Assembly: GCF_030553075.1 (NCBI RefSeq)
Contig: NZ_CP130701.1
Location: 3,224,001-3,288,000 of the forward strand
Reading direction: 5' to 3'
From: Halomonas sp. I5-271120
GTDB lineage: Bacteria > Pseudomonadota > Gammaproteobacteria > Pseudomonadales > Halomonadaceae
Length of the DNA: 64,000 bases
The position numbers and the translations under genes were made by a program. Within the stretch, counting starts at the first letter, position 1, and each line of letters opens with the position of its first letter. Of this stretch, positions 33,276 through 41,750 are shown in pieces. The notes below the pieces were generated by a model. The model was not told the DNA's origin. It searched no databases and worked only from the letters and a program-made list of their open reading frames with translations.

Positions 33276-35117
33276 ATGACGGCGACGTCGCTCCAGCAGT
33301 TCTACATCCCGGAAGAGCAGTCGATCTACCTGCTCAGCCATGACGATGCTAAGAAGCTCAAGGACTGGGTCGCGCTCTGCCAGACCCAGCTCGAGCAGCT
33401 CGGCTACCGTGACATCGCCCTGATCGGCAAGGGCGCCTATGGCTTCGTGTTTGCCGGTCGGGCGCGGCACCCGGCCGGCGAGGTCGAGCACGTCTTCAAG
33501 TTCACCCGGGTGACGCTACCTCAGAAGTTGCAGGACCGGCTCGAGGAAGAGGCCTTTATGCTCGAGCAGGTCGAGCATCCGCGGGTGCCCAGGCTGATTG
33601 CCTATCAGCGGGTGCGCAACCAGTCGATCCTGGTCATGGAGCGTGCACCGGGGGAGAACCTCGAAGAAGTATCGTTGCGCCACGGCCGGCTGTCGCCGCG
33701 GCTGGTGGTACATATTGCCGCGCAACTGGCGGACATCCTGCGGCACTTGCGCCGTGAGTCTGGGCGGCGCAAGCCGCTGGTGCACGGCGATATCAAGCCC
33801 TCGAACCTGGTCTTTGATGCCGCTACCGAACGTATCGCCCTGATCGACTGGGGCTCCTCGGTCTTCGCTCAGCTCGACGAGCGCCTGCAGCACGTGGCCA
33901 CCAACGTCATGGAGCTGATGTCCGATAACCTGCAGCAGACCAACGCCCGCCTGGGCGATGTCTATTTCATTGGCGAAGAGCAGCTGAACGGCGCACTGTC
34001 GTCGCCACGTTTCGATGAGCAGGGCGCGGCCGGGACGCTATATGCACTGGCCTCGGGGCAGTCCTGTCGTTTCGGCCATCGGGCGATACCGGCAACGTCG
34101 CTTGGCCTGCCCATGGAGTTTGCCCGCATGCTCGACGCCATGCTTTCGCCGGACCCGGCGCTGAGGCTGCGGGCCGGCGATTACTTTCTTGATCATATGC
34201 CGCGGCTGGCGCGCACCGTGATGGTCGAGCTCGACGAGCCCCCCGAGGCGTCACTGCTACCCGTCTGGGTGCGTCCGGCCGGGCGCGAGATCGATACCGT
34301 GGTCTACAGCTCGCGCAAGGCCTTCCTGCGCGAGGAAGGCGCGCCGGAGCAGATGAGCGAGGTTAACGACGTTCAGCTCGACCGTTACTACAAGAACTTC
34401 ATGCAGGGCATGGGGGAGACCGAGAAGGCCTTCCTGGCCGCAGTCAGCCGGCTCGGTCGCTATCCCGTGGTCGGCGGCCTGGCGATTCGCTGGGAGACTG
34501 ACGGTATCTACGTCGATATCTCGCTTAACCTGCATGACCCCTCGCTGAAGGCGGCCTTCGTCAGCGCCGTCAACAACATGATTCACCTGGCAAGGGCCAT
34601 CTACCGTCGAGGGATCTTCAAGAGCTGCCTGTTCAATGCTCGGGAGACCCTGCACGTCGACCGGCTGGGGCCGGATCAGCCCTTTATTCTCACGCCGGAC
34701 ATGCGCCTGCCCTACGAGGTCAGCGCGGTCCCCGAGCTCGAGGATCACACCCGGGTGCATTCCTATTTCGAGGATGGCCCCGACCCGGAAGAATTCCTGG
34801 TGCTGCCCGACGAGATCATCGTCTCTCTCGAGGCTCTCAACGCCATCCACCATACCGGCATGATCATCTTCGAGGCGCTGCCCACCCACTTGAAGATCCA
34901 CAGCTACTACCGGCTGCTGGATCCGGCACGCGAGTCGGAGTTTCGAAAGCGACTGGATGACATCCTGGCGGCGGTGGGGCTGATCGAGGGGCTTGGCGTC
35001 TCGGGCTTTATGAAGATGCCTTACAAGGACACCAAGTTCTTTGCCCACATCGAGCGCATGCCGGAGCGCTACTACCCCAAGAATCCTTATTCCCCCAAGA
35101 ACCCCTATGCCTCATGA
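33276..35117 (+). CDS. Hanks-type Ser/Thr protein kinase with unassigned C-terminal half
   Basis: 613 residues. The kinase domain spans about residues 45-310: glycine loop GKGAYGFVF (51-59), Lys75, helix-C Glu near 91, HGDIKPSN catalytic loop (His170, Asp172, Lys174, Asn177) and DWG in place of DFG (Asp191-Gly193). All key residues for catalysis remain. The C-terminal 300 residues match nothing I recognise and end in a YYPKNPYSPKNPY tail with tandem PKNPY units. No membrane helix or PASTA domain is visible, so it is probably cytosolic. It follows E2 by 49 bases and precedes the SMC cassette by 171, so it may belong to the dehydrogenase operon; its substrate is unknown. Confidence 0.85.
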   Translation: MTATSLQQFYIPEEQSIYLLSHDDAKKLKDWVALCQTQLEQLGYRDIALIGKGAYGFVFAGRARHPAGEVEHVFKFTRVTLPQKLQDRLEEEAFMLEQVEHPRVPRLIAYQRVRNQSILVMERAPGENLEEVSLRHGRLSPRLVVHIAAQLADILRHLRRESGRRKPLVHGDIKPSNLVFDAATERIALIDWGSSVFAQLDERLQHVATNVMELMSDNLQQTNARLGDVYFIGEEQLNGALSSPRFDEQGAAGTLYALASGQSCRFGHRAIPATSLGLPMEFARMLDAMLSPDPALRLRAGDYFLDHMPRLARTVMVELDEPPEASLLPVWVRPAGREIDTVVYSSRKAFLREEGAPEQMSEVNDVQLDRYYKNFMQGMGETEKAFLAAVSRLGRYPVVGGLAIRWETDGIYVDISLNLHDPSLKAAFVSAVNNMIHLARAIYRRGIFKSCLFNARETLHVDRLGPDQPFILTPDMRLPYEVSAVPELEDHTRVHSYFEDGPDPEEFLVLPDEIIVSLEALNAIHHTGMIIFEALPTHLKIHSYYRLLDPARESEFRKRLDDILAAVGLIEGLGVSGFMKMPYKDTKFFAHIERMPERYYPKNPYSPKNPYAS

Positions 35118-35288: not shown

Positions 35289-38200
35289 ATGGCCCATCTT
35301 TTACGCATCGTGATGATTCACGGCCACCTTGACGGTGTGGTCGAGCTGAATGTCGATGGTCACACCAATATTTGCGGGACCAACGCCTCGGGGAAGACCA
35401 CCTTGCAGCGCCTGGTGCCGGTGTTTTACGGCGAGCTGCCCAACAAGGTAGTGCCCAAGACACGCATGAAGTTCGATGCCTTCTATCTGCCGCATCGCAA
35501 CAGCTACCTGGTGTATGAATACCGGCGCGAGGCGGGCAATGTCTGCCAGGCGGTGTTGACGCGCAAGAGCGATGGGGGCGTCGAGTACCGCTTCGTGGGG
35601 GCGCCATATCGCCCACAAGACTATCTGGTGGAGAGCGAGGCCGGTGTCGCGGCCCTCGATTACAGTCAGTGGGCCAGCGAGCTGCGCCGCGAGGGGGTGA
35701 GCGTATCGGCCAAGCTGGGCGCTACCTCTGAATACCGCTCGGTGATCCAGAATGATTTCACCCAGCTGCATGGCAATAGTCGCGATGGCCTCAAGCTGCG
35801 CCAGATAGCCGCTCAGTTCAGCCTGGTGAAGCCCGAACGCCGCATCCGCCACATGGAGAAGCTGATCTCGGCGGTGCATGCCAAAGAGGGCAAGATGGAT
35901 ACCCTCAAGACCATGCTGGCCGCGATCTTCGAAGAGGATGGCGTCGAGCTGCCGGTCACCCGGATTCGCAATACCAAGGCCCGCGACTGGATCGCGCAGA
36001 TGCGTCAGTCGATGCGCCTGGAGCCCATGCAGCAGTTAGTGGCGCGGCTTGGGGAGGTGGATCGCGACATCGCTGACCTGGAGGCGACGTTATGGCAGCT
36101 CAAACCCCAACTGGAGGCTGATCGTCATCGCGCCGAGCGCGGCCTGGCCGATAGCGATGAGCAGCTTGCCGCGCACCAGCGTGACTTCCAGGCCCGTGAG
36201 CGTGACTACGGACAGACCCGCGACGCGCTTAACGATCGCCTCAGCGAGCTGAACAGCGAGCTTGAACGTACCCAGCATGAGCTCACCGATCTGCAGCAGC
36301 AGTACGAGCGCTACGCCGAGGCGGACATGCCGGCCCTGGAGCGTGATCTGGAAGCCTTGCCCCAGTGGCGTGAGCAGTGCCAACAGCTTCGAGAGCACCT
36401 GACCCACATGCAGGAAGCCGTGCAGGCCAGTCAGGCGCAGCTCGATGGACGGCTGCGCGAGCTGGCCGATGTGCTGGCGCGGCAAACAGAGGAAATTCAG
36501 GGCCTCGTCGATGCCCTGGGCGATGAGAAAACCGCCAGTCGCGAGCAGCAGTGGGAGGCCGAGCGCAGTATCGAGTCGCGGTATCAGGACGAGCGTGCAG
36601 CCCTCGAGGGCAGCTATCAGGCCCGGCTCGAGCAGGGCGTCGAGCGATTGGCCGCACTCAAGGCGCAGCTCGCGTCTACCACCCAGACTGGCGAAGAGGC
36701 CCAGGAGGCCGAACTGGCCCAGGCGCGGCTGGACCAGGCGCAGAGCGATCGCAATGCCGCATCTGAGAGCCTGGAAGGCGTGCGCCACGAGCACGAGACC
36801 CTAAAGCGCGAACGTGACGCCGCTGAACGTGAGCGCGAAGCGGCCAGGCAGCGGTTGTCTGAGGTTCAGGATCATGGCTATGCGCTGCATCAGCAGCGTG
36901 ATCCTGCCCAGGGCAGTCTGCGACATTTTCTGCGCTACCACCGGCCCGGCTGGGAGCAGCAGTTGGGCAAGGTGATCGCGCCCGAATTGCTCGAGCGTCG
37001 GGATTTGTCGCCGCAGCTTTCTGAGGTGGCACCAGAAGGGGGACAGGGTGACCTGTTCGGTGTGGCCCTCGATCTGGCGGCGATTGACCTGCCTGATTAC
37101 GCACAGGATGAAGCCAGCCTGATGGCGGCTATCGAGGCGGCCGAGGACGCGCGTCAGCGGTCAGAGGCCGAGCTGCAAGCGGCCGAGAAGCAGCTCAAGT
37201 CAGGCCACGACCGCGTGCGGGAGGCCGACGAACGCCTGGGGCAGGCGCGGATTGCGCTCAAGCGAGCCGACGAGGAAGTGAAGTACGCGCTCGAGGCGCG
37301 AAGCCAGCAGCAGGAACGCCATGCCCGGCAGCAGAAAGAGCGTCGTCTGGCTGGCGAAGAGGCGCTGGCGGCTCAGGAGGCGACTCAGCAGGCACTGCGT
37401 GACGAAAAGCGTGAGCAGCTGAAGGCGATGGCAGAATCTCACCAGGCGCAGCTTTTGGAGCTGAAGGCCGATGGGCAGAGCCGACTGGATAGTCTGGATG
37501 AACAGATTCGCCAGCATAAACAGCGGCTCGATGACTTGAAGGATGAACACCGGCGTCAGCGCGAGGAGCTGGAAGCCGCCTATGATCGAGAGCTGCAGGA
37601 GCAGGGCGTTGACCCCGTTACGCTGCGAGATACCCGCTCGCGTTTGACAGCGCTCGATGAGCGTATTCGGACCACGGCTCGGCGCCGCGAAGAACTCGAC
37701 GCCTATACCCGTTTCATGCGCGTTGAATGGGGCGAGCGCAAGCCACAGCTGGTCGACAAGGAAGCGGTGCTGTCGCGTGACCTGCAGGCGGTCAAGCGCG
37801 AACTCGAGCAATGCAGGCAGGATTTCCAAGCGGCCAAGTCGGCGCATCAGGATGCGGTCAAGGCACTCAAGACCCAGCGCGACGCGCAGCAGCAGGTGAT
37901 CGACGCCCTCAAGCCGCTGCTGAGCCAGTTGGCCGGCCTGGGGCTCGGCGCGTCGACTCAGCCGATCAGCGAGGCGCCCGGCGATGTGCATGAACGCATG
38001 GAGCGGGCGCGGCAAGCCCTGGCCAGTCGCAGTCATGAACTGGATACCCTGCGCAAGGGCTGCGAGCAGGTGGAAAGCGAGTTGATCAAGGGCGCCACGT
38101 CGGGCTTCGTCGAGACCCTCGACGCCGAGCGGGCCAAGCTTGTGGAAGATGACCCCGAGCAGGCTGGCAACCCTCGGCGTCACCTACCGCTATTGCGCGG

Positions 38201-38981
38201 CATGCTTCAGCTGCTGGAGGATCAGCAGCAGCAGCTGATCCAGGAGGGGCGCAACCTTGGCGATGACCTGGACAAGTTCTTCACCGTCTTTCGCGACCTC
38301 AACCGCCGCATCAGTGCCCAGAGTCGTCGCCTCTCCGAAGAGGTCGCCGACGACCTGCGCCTCGAGGGCATCAGCAAGGCCGAAGTGCGTATCCAGTCGA
38401 CCATCGATGAGCTGGGCTTCTGGGAGCCTCTTAAGCTGTTTGCCGAGCATTTCAGGGCGTGGCGCGGCGACGGCCTGCCCAGCGATGACTATCTCAATGC
38501 CCTGGCCGATGTGGTGGACCTGCTGCGCAGCGATCAGCAATACAGCTTCGAGAGCCTGCTGCGCCTCGAGCTTTACTTGAACGAAGGCGGCAACGATCTG
38601 GTGATCAAGAACGATCGCCAGCTTCTGGAATCGTCTAGCCACGGTATGGCCTACCTGATCCTGTGCAAGTTCCTGCTTGCTTTCACTCGCTTGCTGCGCG
38701 GCCAGGCGGAGATCGCCATCCACTGGCCCATCGACGAGATCGGCACGCTGGCCTATCACAACGTCGAAAAACTTTTCGATGCCTGCGACAGCAACCGCAT
38801 CCATATCGTCGGCGCCTTTCCCAACCCCGAGTCGGACGTGCTGATGCTGTTCCACAATCGCTATCTGATCGATCGCGACGACAGCCGCCCCAACCGTCGT
38901 TGTCTGAAACGCATCGAACCGCGGCTGAGTCGCCTGGCCGAGCGGCTGCAGGCCCGCGCCACCGAGGAGGTCGTAGAATGA
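35289..38981 (+). CDS. SMC/MukB-like ATPase of a Wadjet/MksBEFG-type system (JetC/MksB-like)
   Basis: 1230 residues built as an SMC motor. The N-terminal ATPase half has Walker A GTNASGKT (30-37), then very long Gln/Glu/Arg/Ala-rich coiled coils (about 250-560 and 640-1000) around a possible hinge (about 560-640). The C-terminal ATPase half has Walker B near IHWPIDEIG (about 1145-1155) and an unusual signature region, SSSHG, where SMC proteins have LSGGQ-like sequence. It should form a DNA-loop-extruding dimer with the kleisin and MukE-like products encoded downstream. AAGGACG precedes the ATG. Its last codon overlaps the next gene (ATGA). The family assignment is solid at the level of an SMC-like condensin; the defence role is inferred from the Toprim partner. 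Confidence 0.85.
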   Translation: MAHLLRIVMIHGHLDGVVELNVDGHTNICGTNASGKTTLQRLVPVFYGELPNKVVPKTRMKFDAFYLPHRNSYLVYEYRREAGNVCQAVLTRKSDGGVEYRFVGAPYRPQDYLVESEAGVAALDYSQWASELRREGVSVSAKLGATSEYRSVIQNDFTQLHGNSRDGLKLRQIAAQFSLVKPERRIRHMEKLISAVHAKEGKMDTLKTMLAAIFEEDGVELPVTRIRNTKARDWIAQMRQSMRLEPMQQLVARLGEVDRDIADLEATLWQLKPQLEADRHRAERGLADSDEQLAAHQRDFQARERDYGQTRDALNDRLSELNSELERTQHELTDLQQQYERYAEADMPALERDLEALPQWREQCQQLREHLTHMQEAVQASQAQLDGRLRELADVLARQTEEIQGLVDALGDEKTASREQQWEAERSIESRYQDERAALEGSYQARLEQGVERLAALKAQLASTTQTGEEAQEAELAQARLDQAQSDRNAASESLEGVRHEHETLKRERDAAEREREAARQRLSEVQDHGYALHQQRDPAQGSLRHFLRYHRPGWEQQLGKVIAPELLERRDLSPQLSEVAPEGGQGDLFGVALDLAAIDLPDYAQDEASLMAAIEAAEDARQRSEAELQAAEKQLKSGHDRVREADERLGQARIALKRADEEVKYALEARSQQQERHARQQKERRLAGEEALAAQEATQQALRDEKREQLKAMAESHQAQLLELKADGQSRLDSLDEQIRQHKQRLDDLKDEHRRQREELEAAYDRELQEQGVDPVTLRDTRSRLTALDERIRTTARRREELDAYTRFMRVEWGERKPQLVDKEAVLSRDLQAVKRELEQCRQDFQAAKSAHQDAVKALKTQRDAQQQVIDALKPLLSQLAGLGLGASTQPISEAPGDVHERMERARQALASRSHELDTLRKGCEQVESELIKGATSGFVETLDAERAKLVEDDPEQAGNPRRHLPLLRGMLQLLEDQQQQLIQEGRNLGDDLDKFFTVFRDLNRRISAQSRRLSEEVADDLRLEGISKAEVRIQSTIDELGFWEPLKLFAEHFRAWRGDGLPSDDYLNALADVVDLLRSDQQYSFESLLRLELYLNEGGNDLVIKNDRQLLESSSHGMAYLILCKFLLAFTRLLRGQAEIAIHWPIDEIGTLAYHNVEKLFDACDSNRIHIVGAFPNPESDVLMLFHNRYLIDRDDSRPNRRCLKRIEPRLSRLAERLQARATEEVVE

Positions 38982-39604
38982 CTGAACATGGCCCATTGAT
39001 CGAGCGCTTGCTGGCCGGCGATTTCATCTGTGCGGTGAGCGACGAGAGCGCCTTTCGGCGCCTGCAGGACGAGCAGATCCGCGAGCAGCTCGACACCTAC
39101 CTGCGCCCGCTCAATCGGCGACTGGCCGCCAACCCGGAGAGCAGCGTCTATTTTCTTGCCTGGCGGCACGTGAACGACGAAGCCCGGGAGCAGCTCTCCC
39201 AACAGTTGGGCGAGACGCTTCACAGCCTGTTGCCCCTGCTCGAGTGGCTACGGCTGGTGCAGGAGGCGCTGGGGCGCGATGCCCTGATTGCCCCGGGCGA
39301 CGTGCTCAAACCGGCCGAATTCAGCGCCAAGTGTGAGGATAACCAGAGCCTTCGCGAGCGGCTGGAACGACTGGCTACCGATAGCTTCTTCGGCTCCCAG
39401 AGCGAGCAGCTCGACGCGCAGTTGAAGCAGGTCTTCAAGCGTCTCAAGGAGCATGGCTATCTACTCCAGCCGCATGCCGACCGACAGGTCTACCTGGTAA
39501 CCGGCAAGGTCGATTACCTGATCGACCTGGTGCGTTTCATTCGCGACGAGGAGAACCTGCCCATCGACGAGGAGGCGCCGGCGACTCAGGAGGCCCTGCT
39601 GTGA
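38978..39604 (+). CDS. MukE-like subunit of the SMC cassette (JetB/MksE-like)
   Basis: 208 residues. The ATG at 38978 overlaps the SMC stop (ATGA) and gives the expected MukE/JetB size; the longer open frame upstream lies inside the SMC gene. Helical N-terminal part (LIERLLAGDFICAVSDESAFRRL), then winged-helix-like repeats and an acidic tail. By position and size it is the dimeric subunit that binds the kleisin. Sequence identity to known MksE/JetB cannot be judged by eye, so the assignment rests on size, fold-like features and gene context. Confidence 0.75.
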   Translation: MTEHGPLIERLLAGDFICAVSDESAFRRLQDEQIREQLDTYLRPLNRRLAANPESSVYFLAWRHVNDEAREQLSQQLGETLHSLLPLLEWLRLVQEALGRDALIAPGDVLKPAEFSAKCEDNQSLRERLERLATDSFFGSQSEQLDAQLKQVFKRLKEHGYLLQPHADRQVYLVTGKVDYLIDLVRFIRDEENLPIDEEAPATQEALL

Positions 39605-40845
39605 GTGAGGTTCACGCCCTGGAAAGCCGACTGCTGACCACCGGTACCGAACGGCTGGCGCTGCTTGGCAAGCACGCCGATGCACTGATGCAGGGCTATA
39701 CCCGCGACGAGGTGCCGCTTGAGGCACTGACCGATGCAGCCTTACGCAAGCTGCTCGCGGCTCGGATTCTGTGGCGGCCCGATGAGCAGAGCGGTGTAAA
39801 ACTGTCCCCCAAGGTCCGGGATCTGATCGCCGAGATGCTTGCCGACGAGACCCGGCGACACGTCAATGCCGGTGTCGCCGAGACGCTGGAGCTTATCCGC
39901 AGCCTGGTGCAGAGCTATCGTGAGGCGCGTAGTCGCGGTGAATACTGGCAGCAGGAGCAGCAGCTCTTGCGCCTGCGTCAGGAGGTGGACGACCTCAACG
40001 GTCGCTTCGCCGATGCCATCGACAGCCTCTGGCAGCGCCTCAACAGCGACTTTGGGTTTGTCAGTCGCCTGAACGACAAGATTCGCGAGAACCATCGCGC
40101 CCAGAAGCAGATCGAGCGCCTGCTGGACGGCCTGGCGCTGATCGACTTCGACGAGCTGATCGAACTGGTCGGCAGCGATGGCACCCTGCGCAAGTTATTG
40201 ATCAGCCAATTGCAGCAGCAACTCAGCCAGCACTACACCAGCCTGCGAGAAGTGCAGCGACGCCTGATCGAGCTGATGGCGCGCTTTCGTCAGCAGCAGT
40301 CGCGTAGCCGCCTGGTGGCCGGCATGGCAGCTTTCCTGCGCGAGCACCCGGGGTTCGTGCCCGGCAACTATGCCCGTCGTAGCGAGGTCCCGGCCCTGGT
40401 TAACCGTGCCACCTCGCTTACTGCGGCGGCGGCGCCCGCGCTGGACCGTCACCGGGATACCGCTGTGCTCAGCGAGCTGGTTCGCCAACTGCCGGCACCG
40501 GTGCAACCGCCACAGGCCGTGGAGGCCGCTCAACCCGCCGAGCAGCAGCAGGAATCTCGCGTCGCCGCTCGTCAGCAGGCCCTGAAGCAGGATGTCGAGC
40601 GTTTCTACCTGGCGGTGGTCGATGAGGCTGACGCCTCCGGCGTCAGTGCCTTGGGCTATCTACACGCCAGGGATCTGGATTGGCAGGACGAGATTTGGCT
40701 GTTCCAGGTGATCGCCGAGTATCAAAGCCTGCCGCGCAGCGAGCAGCGCGCCTTTCGTCTTCATCAGGAAGAGAGCCAGGCCAGCAGCTTCAATCACGTG
40801 CGGCTGATCCACGACGTCACGCTGCAGCTGGCGCTTCCCGCATGA
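39601..40845 (+). CDS. Kleisin-like subunit of the SMC cassette (JetA/MksF-like)
   Basis: 414 residues from GTG, overlapping the stop of the preceding gene (GTGA). N-terminal winged-helix-like region, a helical middle with coiled-coil tendency (about 100-260), a Pro/Ala/Gln-rich linker (about 295-325) and a second compact domain at the C-terminus (DVERFYLAVVDEADASGVSALGYL). This layout, two globular ends joined by a flexible linker, is that of MukF-type kleisins, which close the SMC ring. The next gene starts within its stop codon. Confidence 0.75.
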   Translation: MSEVHALESRLLTTGTERLALLGKHADALMQGYTRDEVPLEALTDAALRKLLAARILWRPDEQSGVKLSPKVRDLIAEMLADETRRHVNAGVAETLELIRSLVQSYREARSRGEYWQQEQQLLRLRQEVDDLNGRFADAIDSLWQRLNSDFGFVSRLNDKIRENHRAQKQIERLLDGLALIDFDELIELVGSDGTLRKLLISQLQQQLSQHYTSLREVQRRLIELMARFRQQQSRSRLVAGMAAFLREHPGFVPGNYARRSEVPALVNRATSLTAAAAPALDRHRDTAVLSELVRQLPAPVQPPQAVEAAQPAEQQQESRVAARQQALKQDVERFYLAVVDEADASGVSALGYLHARDLDWQDEIWLFQVIAEYQSLPRSEQRAFRLHQEESQASSFNHVRLIHDVTLQLALPA

Positions 40846-41750
40846 CGCTCTCTAGCGCCGCCCGTCGTGCCCTCAACGAAGTCGAGCGGCGGCTGCGCGG
40901 TCAGCCAACGCTGGAAAAGGCGCGCAGTGCCAAATGGGTCAAGGAAGTTGAGGCGTGGTGTGCTCAGCAGGATATCGATCTGCGCGCACGACAGAACGTG
41001 AAAACGCTGCGATTTGATCGTGATCTGCTCTCCAAGATCAATCGCGTGCTGGAGAGTCTTGGGCAGGCGCCACTGGGCGTTAGCCTCAGTGGGCTCACCA
41101 CGTCTGAACAGGCCTACCTGGGAAGTGAGGAAGCGAAAGGCGTGGGACAACGCCCGCGATTCCGGCGGGTGCTTGTCAACCTGCCGCTCGAGTCCTCTCT
41201 GTCTTGGCTTTCCGCCGAGTCTCGCCAATATCGCGACCTGGACTGGCCGTCGATTGACCTGGGGGCCTTCGATGCGCTCATTCAGATAGAGAATCTCGAC
41301 AGTTTCTATGCCTTTAGCGGCGACACAGAGGCCAACGTCATTCGCTCGACAACTGCTCGTCGCATTTGTCGGCCGCTGGTGGTCTATCGCGGCGACAAGC
41401 ACTACGGCGGCGGCTTTGCTGCCCTGGCCAGGGCGTGGATGGACACCGGCAAGCCGCATGGCTATCTGGGTGACTTCGATGCCTCCGGCGTGTCGTTTGC
41501 GCTGGCGAGCCAGTCAACGCATCTGATCTTGCCACCATTGGAATGGCTTGCCGCCAAAGTGACCGGCGAGCATCTGCCGCCAGAGCAAACGAAGACACAG
41601 GCCGTGCTTCGTCAACACCTGAAAAGCCTCCGTCGAGATCATCCGTTGCAGCCTTATCTAGCGCTCATGTTCGGCCAGCAGCGCGGGCTCCGGCAGCAGT
41701 GGTTTGGGGCCGATCTCGAGTGGGTGCCGCTGGGCCTTGGGTCGGACTAG
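40842..41750 (+). CDS. Toprim-domain nuclease subunit, short JetD/MksG-like
   Basis: 302 residues from the ATG overlapping the kleisin stop (ATGA); an in-frame start at 40680 lies inside the previous gene. The C-terminal half has Toprim hallmarks: Glu150 in IQIENLDSFY, then Asp211 and Asp213 in YLGDFDASGVSFA, the metal-binding set of topoisomerase VI-like and JetD nucleases. The N-terminal 130 residues are helical and basic and may be a DNA-binding arm. Known JetD/MksG proteins are near 380-400 residues, so this is a shortened version. In Wadjet systems JetD cuts plasmids that the SMC complex has fully reeled in. The family is inferred from motifs plus context. Confidence 0.8.
   Translation: MTLSSAARRALNEVERRLRGQPTLEKARSAKWVKEVEAWCAQQDIDLRARQNVKTLRFDRDLLSKINRVLESLGQAPLGVSLSGLTTSEQAYLGSEEAKGVGQRPRFRRVLVNLPLESSLSWLSAESRQYRDLDWPSIDLGAFDALIQIENLDSFYAFSGDTEANVIRSTTARRICRPLVVYRGDKHYGGGFAALARAWMDTGKPHGYLGDFDASGVSFALASQSTHLILPPLEWLAAKVTGEHLPPEQTKTQAVLRQHLKSLRRDHPLQPYLALMFGQQRGLRQQWFGADLEWVPLGLGSD

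Follow-up and report, generated by a model that had tools for sequence, protein, structure and literature searches.

What kind of system is encoded where a gene for an SMC ATPase runs, through two smaller genes, into a gene for a Toprim protein? The case considered here lies in Halomonas sp. I5-271120, in a stretch of 64,000 nucleotides (contig NZ_CP130701.1, positions 3,224,001 to 3,288,000) that we call the window and within which positions are counted. Four plus-strand genes at 35289-41750 encode an SMC ATPase, a KITE subunit, a kleisin and a Toprim nuclease, in this order. Our computational analysis indicates that this cassette is probably a Wadjet-like anti-plasmid SMC nuclease that forms a separate lineage and carries its nuclease as a detachable effector.

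Gene content and gene order

Each gene of the cassette overlaps the next by 4 bases (ATGA at 38978-38981, GTGA at 39601-39604 and ATGA at 40842-40845), just as a preliminary description of this DNA had reported. The first gene (35289-38981) encodes an SMC ATPase of the Pfam DUF3584 type, with 1230 amino acids (aa), in the MksB/JetC position; it was assigned using PF12128 and a tree of SMC heads. This is followed by a KITE subunit of the MksE family (38978-39604, 208 aa; PF21980), a kleisin subunit with a MukF-like predicted fold (39601-40845, 414 aa, GTG start), and a JetD/MksG-like Toprim nuclease subunit, DUF7281 (40842-41750, 302 aa), assigned from Pfam, a structure model and conserved residues. 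The identities proposed earlier (SMC, MukE-like, kleisin-like and Toprim) are borne out, by Pfam for genes 1, 2 and 4 and by models for the kleisin and the Toprim protein. The mechanically derived open reading frame of gene 4 opens further upstream, at a TTG at 40680; we take the ATG at 40842 as the start because it results in the 4-base overlap and because the starts of relatives align there. A scan for promoters and terminators returned no promoter-like sites, and two terminator-like sites compared with a mean of 3.8 in shuffled sequence. The host genome consists of two contigs (4.04 Mb), with the cassette on the 3.8 Mb contig.

The order first noted in the window recurs in its relatives. 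We surveyed 130 related loci, 129 of them found via SMC similarity and one, in a phage (L161), via its kleisin, and assigned the order by profile search. SMC-KITE-kleisin occurs in 84 loci (four of them duplicates) and SMC-KITE-kleisin-nuclease in 44, which include one degraded locus (L160) and one with an interrupted SMC (L164). A piece of the SMC stands alone in two loci (L028 and L166), and no locus has another order. The SMC-first order is thus constant in 128 of 130 loci, very divergent relatives included, and we rejected chance adjacency of the four genes on this ground.

The preliminary description had stated that Wadjet operons run from kleisin through KITE to SMC, and control loci uphold this contrast. 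These loci (n = 14) were found with the PADLOC JetC1 and JetC2 models, and their subunits were assigned by size and place, and in part by Pfam. The order is kleisin-KITE-SMC in 11 of the 14 JetC1/MksB/JetC2 loci, nine of which have a nuclease-sized open reading frame after the SMC; the other three (L146, L152 and L154) were not parsable for order. The E. coli genes run mukF-mukE-mukB, and the order published for the MksBEF family is F-E-B(-G) (PMC10123090).

The SMC subunit and its lineage

The SMC matches Pfam DUF3584 (PF12128) over nearly its full length (E 1.8e-238). Its Walker A (GTNASGKT, residues 30-37, 35376-35399) and Walker B (IHWPIDEIG, residues 1144-1152, 38718-38744) motifs, both on the plus strand, are intact, and all 22 DUF3584 heads compared have the pattern GxNxxGK(T/S) and the DE of Walker B. 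The ABC signature region (ESSSHGM, residues 1114-1120, 38628-38648, plus strand) is without the SGGE of JetC1 and Smc rows; it is variable among the 22 heads, and SGGE is found in none.

We built a tree from 40 selected SMC heads, with housekeeping Smc as the root; several of its branches are long. In it, the 22 DUF3584 heads form one clade (100/99) that is present in 100% of 200 bootstrap trees. Eleven JetC1/MksB rows make up another clade (98/94), and JetC2 groups with MukB (97/90, with long branches). The tree was built without JetC3, the SMC of Wadjet type III, and without the P. aeruginosa SMC. We found no JetC3 in 203 genomes of the class and 299 of the phylum, where the controls were silent too, so its absence is not established. 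The suggestion that the cassette may be a separate subtype is therefore supported with respect to JetC1/MksB, JetC2 and MukB. Within the window's family, six loci (L041-L046, in G478, G459, G476, G577, G434 and G414) represent a second divergent DUF3584 lineage, with scores of 506-555 bits where the main lineage has about 730-830; in the SMC tree, two of them (L041 and L046) fall together with copies from plasmids (L162 and L167).

Profile comparison links the N-terminal head of the SMC to JetC/MksB (E 3.9e-13). PADLOC models hardly recognise the family: the best score for the window SMC is 19.2 bits, two of eight other SMCs have weak JetC1 matches confined to the first 42 residues, and LmuB models match weakly. 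Five control SMCs, MukB among them, have SbcC_Walker_B and no DUF3584 match. The MukB N-terminal domain PF04310 has no match in the window SMC (E<=1) or in the window's genome (E<=0.001), which has a single copy of the DUF3584 SMC, a separate housekeeping Smc and no MukB match. A sequence search of solved structures with the SMC, KITE and kleisin returned unrelated matches only.

KITE and kleisin subunits

The KITE subunit matches Pfam MksE (PF21980) with E 6.7e-9 and 36.8 bits (cut-off 27), whereas its DUF4194 score (18.4 bits) is under the cut-off of 32.7. Among 31 KITEs chosen for alignment, the window's included, MksE is matched in 29 and DUF4194 in 12 (E<=0.01). PADLOC gave no Jet-type match for window genes 2-4 and none for the KITEs of relatives. 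Control proteins scanned in the same way with Pfam were recognised (JetA 4/4, DUF4194 4/4, JetD_C 2/2).

The kleisin has no Pfam family match. In 37 kleisins chosen for alignment (window included, E<=0.01) no single family occurs in more than two, and JetA PF18982 occurs in none. The nearest structure to its model is MukF, and this predicted fold supports identification of gene 3 as a MukF-like kleisin. Foldseek alone gave no match at E<=0.001 for the kleisin or nuclease model; the fold assignments come from ranking and a second aligner, and for the nuclease also from conserved residues. In both models the predicted folds agree with the earlier assignments (MukF-like for gene 3, Toprim-like for gene 4), and absence of the fold was seen for neither. 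The earlier view that all four proteins are remote from the best-known families does not hold for genes 1, 2 and 4, which pass Pfam cut-offs, and stands for gene 3. The proposed kinship with Jet families finds profile links for the SMC and the nuclease, but none to JetA and a DUF4194 score under the cut-off.

The Toprim nuclease

The nuclease matches Pfam DUF7281 (PF23947) with 37.7 bits (cut-off 27). We aligned it with 27 chosen relatives, whose identity to the window protein goes down to 17%; DUF7281 is found in 27 of the 28 sequences and JetD_C in four (E<=0.01). The structure model is similar to the Toprim fold of Topo VI A, MksG and JetD, and profile comparison relates the family to JetD/MksG (E 2.1e-8); against solved structures the profile finds MksG alone (E 0.24). 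Each PADLOC JetD model matches at most six of the 28 nucleases (best E 3.7e-6), with weak matches to six for one JetD3 model, and the window nuclease is unmatched.

Residues invariant in all 28 include K99, E150, N151, R183, D211, D213, G216 and Q285. The codon of the Toprim glutamate Glu150 is at 41289-41291 and those of Asp211-x-Asp213 are at 41472-41480 (plus strand). E150, D211 and D213 are kept in all seven mobile copies checked, one of which has Ser in place of G216. No invariant or near-invariant tyrosine was identified in the 28 aligned nucleases, which would fit a metal-dependent hydrolase better than a Topo VI-like transesterase. The proteins are about 300 aa long, compared with 375-439 aa in the control loci.

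Probable loss of the nuclease, and selection on the core

The nuclease is detachable and evolves fast; it is probably an effector, added to a core that can also exist on its own. Our set of genome contigs comprises the 80 top-ranking loci among 359 relatives, ranked by their similarity to a query that lacks the nuclease (L020). It contains nine Shewanella loci and one labelled Endozoicomonas; nearly all others are labelled as genera of Alteromonadaceae. The nuclease is absent in 75 of these 80 loci, with SMC, KITE and kleisin kept, and present in five; since the set was drawn by a nuclease-less query, this proportion is an overestimate for relatives in general. Two three-gene loci near the window's clade, one from another family (L039; G960, family f199) and one from the window's own (L052; G371), show that absence of the nuclease is not restricted to Alteromonadaceae and Shewanella.

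In a tree of SMC heads, KITE and kleisin (67 chosen rows), nuclease presence changes at least nine times. Such label changes alone do not separate gain from loss, and several branches are long in the core and nuclease trees. We read the direction as loss because of a nuclease remnant in Alteromonas ponticola (L080), the presence of the nuclease in deep divergent rows, and the nuclease tree, in which inheritance with repeated loss appears to fit better than fresh gains, its deep forks being weak. Three groups hold together in this tree: the five Alteromonadaceae nucleases (100/99), L029, L030 and L032 (97/96), and ten members from the window's family (100/100); three further members from that family lie in another clade. 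The A. ponticola remnant follows the kleisin and consists of the beginning of the gene and a short piece of its end, with about 0.6 kb missing between them. All three core genes have their full length in this locus, and a near relative (L088) has a whole nuclease. Two Bowmanella loci, L118 and L119, match in sequence on either side of the nuclease stretch, by which they differ.

The ratio of non-synonymous to synonymous substitution rates (dN/dS) was estimated for 16 chosen pairs; three of these show partial or complete saturation, and dS exceeds 1 in others. In three pairs without saturation and without a nuclease in either member (L116-L119, L093-L094 and L133-L137), core dN/dS is 0.00-0.07. 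For five nuclease-bearing pairs of the window's family (the near-identical pair of the window and L057 excluded), values are 0.06-0.19 for the core and 0.11-0.30 for the nuclease. The pair L029-L030 has 0.015-0.028 for the core and 0.17 for the nuclease; thus, a constrained core is not peculiar to nuclease-less lineages. Counter to a simple story, the core of L050-L052, where L052 is without nuclease, has 0.19-0.23.

Two further loci are of interest here. The core of the locus labelled Endozoicomonas sp. G2_1 (L061, NZ_JAGHQT010000019.1) nests among Alteromonadaceae, and either a mislabel or a transfer is possible. One control locus of the JetC1/MksB type (L149, in G033) has the order kleisin-KITE-SMC with no nuclease-sized open reading frame directly after the SMC, possibly the same kind of loss in a known lineage.

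Plasmid and phage copies

The SMC search matched 26 plasmid records, and six of the seven inspected have the order SMC-KITE-kleisin-nuclease; some of these plasmids are conjugative. The cassette was identified in Marinobacter pMAQU02, Aromatoleum plasmid 1, an Enterobacter IncC plasmid, a Vibrio plasmid and two Acinetobacter plasmids. On the IncC plasmid of Enterobacter hormaechei (NZ_OR497351.1, L164:753-15676) it adjoins Tn7-like transposition genes of the TnsA/TnsD type; ISSod4 interrupts the SMC, and KITE, kleisin and nuclease remain. An Enterobacter cloacae IncHI2A plasmid (CP035634.1, L166:6965-7654) has an SMC stub of about the first 230 residues, followed by insertion sequences, and the same 17% SMC match is found in at least nine other plasmid records. 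Carriage on plasmids, in one case beside Tn7-like genes, is what one would expect if the module serves defence or competition. In the available part of a survey of Tn7 cargo, Wadjet is listed by JetD COG4924 alone (PMC8649781).

One of 50,697 phage records, that of Dolichospermum phage Dfl-JY45, contains the whole cassette (PP438435.1, 86907-93262; L161:3687-10042). In this 209 kb cyanophage record the four genes are annotated as hypothetical. The SMC is 28.7% identical over 97%, and the nuclease keeps the catalytic E, D and D. Our literature search found no paper naming this phage, and scans of IMG/VR viral contigs confirmed no relative.

Distribution and genomic neighbourhood

Of 275 genomes in the window's family, 141 have DUF3584 over the cut-off, as do 10 of 369 in the class sample and 18 of 349 in the phylum sample; these counts are lower bounds, as few candidates (mostly two) were scored per genome. 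The named relatives of gene 4 come mostly from Halomonas and its kin. A degraded cassette of the family (L160, G632:C1:600000-618000) has several stops in the SMC and a fragmented nuclease, and split SMC matches occur in other genomes of the window's family also.

Neighbours of the cassette vary within the family. Upstream of the window cassette is a protein-kinase-like gene (33276-35117, 613 aa; Pkinase 66.5 bits, PADLOC PD-T4-6-type 82.9 bits). We rejected it as a fifth subunit, since it is 171 bp upstream and present in four of 22 family loci (L051, L055, L057 and L058), of which L057 is from the window's own species; another of the loci, L052, has almost no upstream sequence. The arrangement of E2 and kinase genes seen in the window was found in four of the 22 loci. 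Other neighbours include genes for what we take to be an aceF-like E2, a MarR protein and a TRAP transporter.

Inferred function and alternatives

According to reviews, Wadjet consists of an SMC core and the Toprim nuclease JetD, which is activated by recognition of circular DNA (PMC10586767 and PMC10512200). In Bacillota, Wadjet is reported to be negatively associated with small plasmids (PMC12287153). By analogy, as the anatomy of the cassette is alike, the four proteins would form a complex that extrudes loops, cuts circles and defends against plasmids. An SMC dimer (gene 1) would be closed by the MukF-like kleisin (gene 3) and a dimer of the MksE-type KITE (gene 2), and would reel in DNA via ATP-driven loop extrusion. 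When a small circular molecule leaves nothing more to extrude, the product of gene 4, a Toprim endonuclease like Topo VI A, would cut, and incoming plasmids would be removed in the manner worked out for Wadjet/MksBEFG.

Several observations weigh against this interpretation. PF13558 and PF13555 of known Wadjet SMCs are not among the matches of the window SMC. When the KITE profile is compared with JetB, the result (E 0.0043, probability 8) does not surpass that of a mismatched control (E 0.0058, probability 6). The kleisin does not belong to PF18982, the JetA family of known Wadjet systems, and its profile comparison with JetA gave no similarity. Genes around the window cassette look mostly metabolic, apart from the kinase with PADLOC hits, and our literature search found no experiment on the family of DUF3584 cassettes. 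In addition, many relatives keep the core without a nuclease, so defence cannot be the sole use of the core.

This last point bears on a rival explanation, which we consider unlikely, that the cassette encodes a second, MksBEF-like condensin for chromosome organisation, in which the Toprim protein would act on the host chromosome, as a regulator or as an aid to decatenation, and would not be a plasmid-killing effector. The 75 nuclease-less loci and the low core dN/dS of the three unsaturated nuclease-less pairs are in line with such a role. However, the SMC is patchy in the window's family, its neighbours differ, most family loci inspected have an intact, fast-evolving nuclease, and four-gene copies are carried on plasmids and one phage. 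Those mobile copies could instead serve inter-element warfare, and the target could be DNA other than plasmids, be it from phages or of another kind (linear or nicked molecules, or replication intermediates); Lamassu is an SMC-type defence with anti-phage activity (PMC10586767). An anti-phage system is nonetheless improbable here, because the subunits resemble those of MukBEF and Wadjet and the LmuB models match weakly. That the genes are chance neighbours, or a decaying remnant without joint function, is hardly credible: although some family members are broken, as in the case of G632 with its SMC stops, the window copy is intact with overlapping genes, dN/dS of the compared copies is well below 1, and even very divergent relatives share the order.

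A Wadjet-like anti-plasmid nuclease thus remains our preferred interpretation. The chances seem to us about even for a broader scenario, in which DUF3584 cassettes are a further major MukBEF/Wadjet branch beside JetC1/MksB and JetC2/MukB. The nuclease would have been shed several times in Alteromonadaceae and Shewanella, where the core, strongly conserved, would now be a chromosome condensin, and nuclease-bearing copies would have spread on plasmids, beside Tn7-like genes and in phage as plasmid-killing modules. Natural pairs of related species, similar in the core but with the nuclease in one member only, make it possible to ask whether loss of the cutter alone makes a chromosome organiser; if true, the proposed turn from defence to condensin is directly testable using the close pairs and the decayed remnant. 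Since plasmids and a phage carry copies, such machines may also serve mobile elements as weapons against each other. Given that PADLOC models hardly recognise these cassettes, whose DUF3584 SMC is over the cut-off in 141 of the 275 genomes in the window's family, surveys that use them would probably undercount plasmid-cutting condensins.

Comparison with known systems

The search of the literature, which had most subscription papers outside its scope, found no mention of DUF7281. The five papers naming DUF3584 include, by title, none on plasmid defence or condensins, and the phrase 'type IV Wadjet' was not found, in a search that could miss papers. Halomonas and Wadjet are named together in one paper. 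MksBEF, with its subfamilies, was reportedly defined by Petrushenko et al. in 2011, and parts of the DUF3584 lineage may already be listed there.

Lamassu shares with the window locus the use of an SMC-like ATPase (LmuB) in defence, and the window locus adds a KITE and a kleisin. MukBEF of E. coli also has features in common: the kleisin model is nearest to MukF, and the signature region is without GGE, as in MukB. However, MukB is longer (1486 aa) and groups with JetC2, the operon begins with mukF, and there is no adjacent nuclease gene. With MksBEF/MksBEFG the window locus shares the MksE-type KITE (PF21980), but not the order F-E-B(-G). The three-gene relatives in Alteromonas and Shewanella resemble MksBEF of P. 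aeruginosa, which is without MksG, whereas the window copy keeps its nuclease; the P. aeruginosa form was likely derived through JetD loss, according to a review (PMC10586767).

Wadjet types I and II and MksBEFG (EptABCD) resemble the window locus in that they combine an SMC, a KITE, a kleisin and a Toprim (Topo VI A-like) nuclease in a tight operon, with profile similarity in the SMC N-terminal head and the nuclease and with a similar nuclease fold. The window nuclease has the glutamate and DxD, and the predicted JetD-like fold, of the type I/II nucleases, although JetD_C is recognised in four of the 28 members. The differences are in order (SMC-KITE-kleisin-nuclease, versus kleisin-KITE-SMC-nuclease) and in families: the SMC is PF12128, in its own clade outside JetC1 and JetC2, where known Wadjet has PF13558/PF13555; the KITE is PF21980 with DUF4194 under the cut-off; and the nuclease is PF23947. 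Direct membership in PADLOC Wadjet types I-II was rejected because of the separate clade and the different Pfam families. The window locus is instead a DUF3584-type cassette, that is, a PF12128 SMC followed by an MksE-type KITE and a kleisin.

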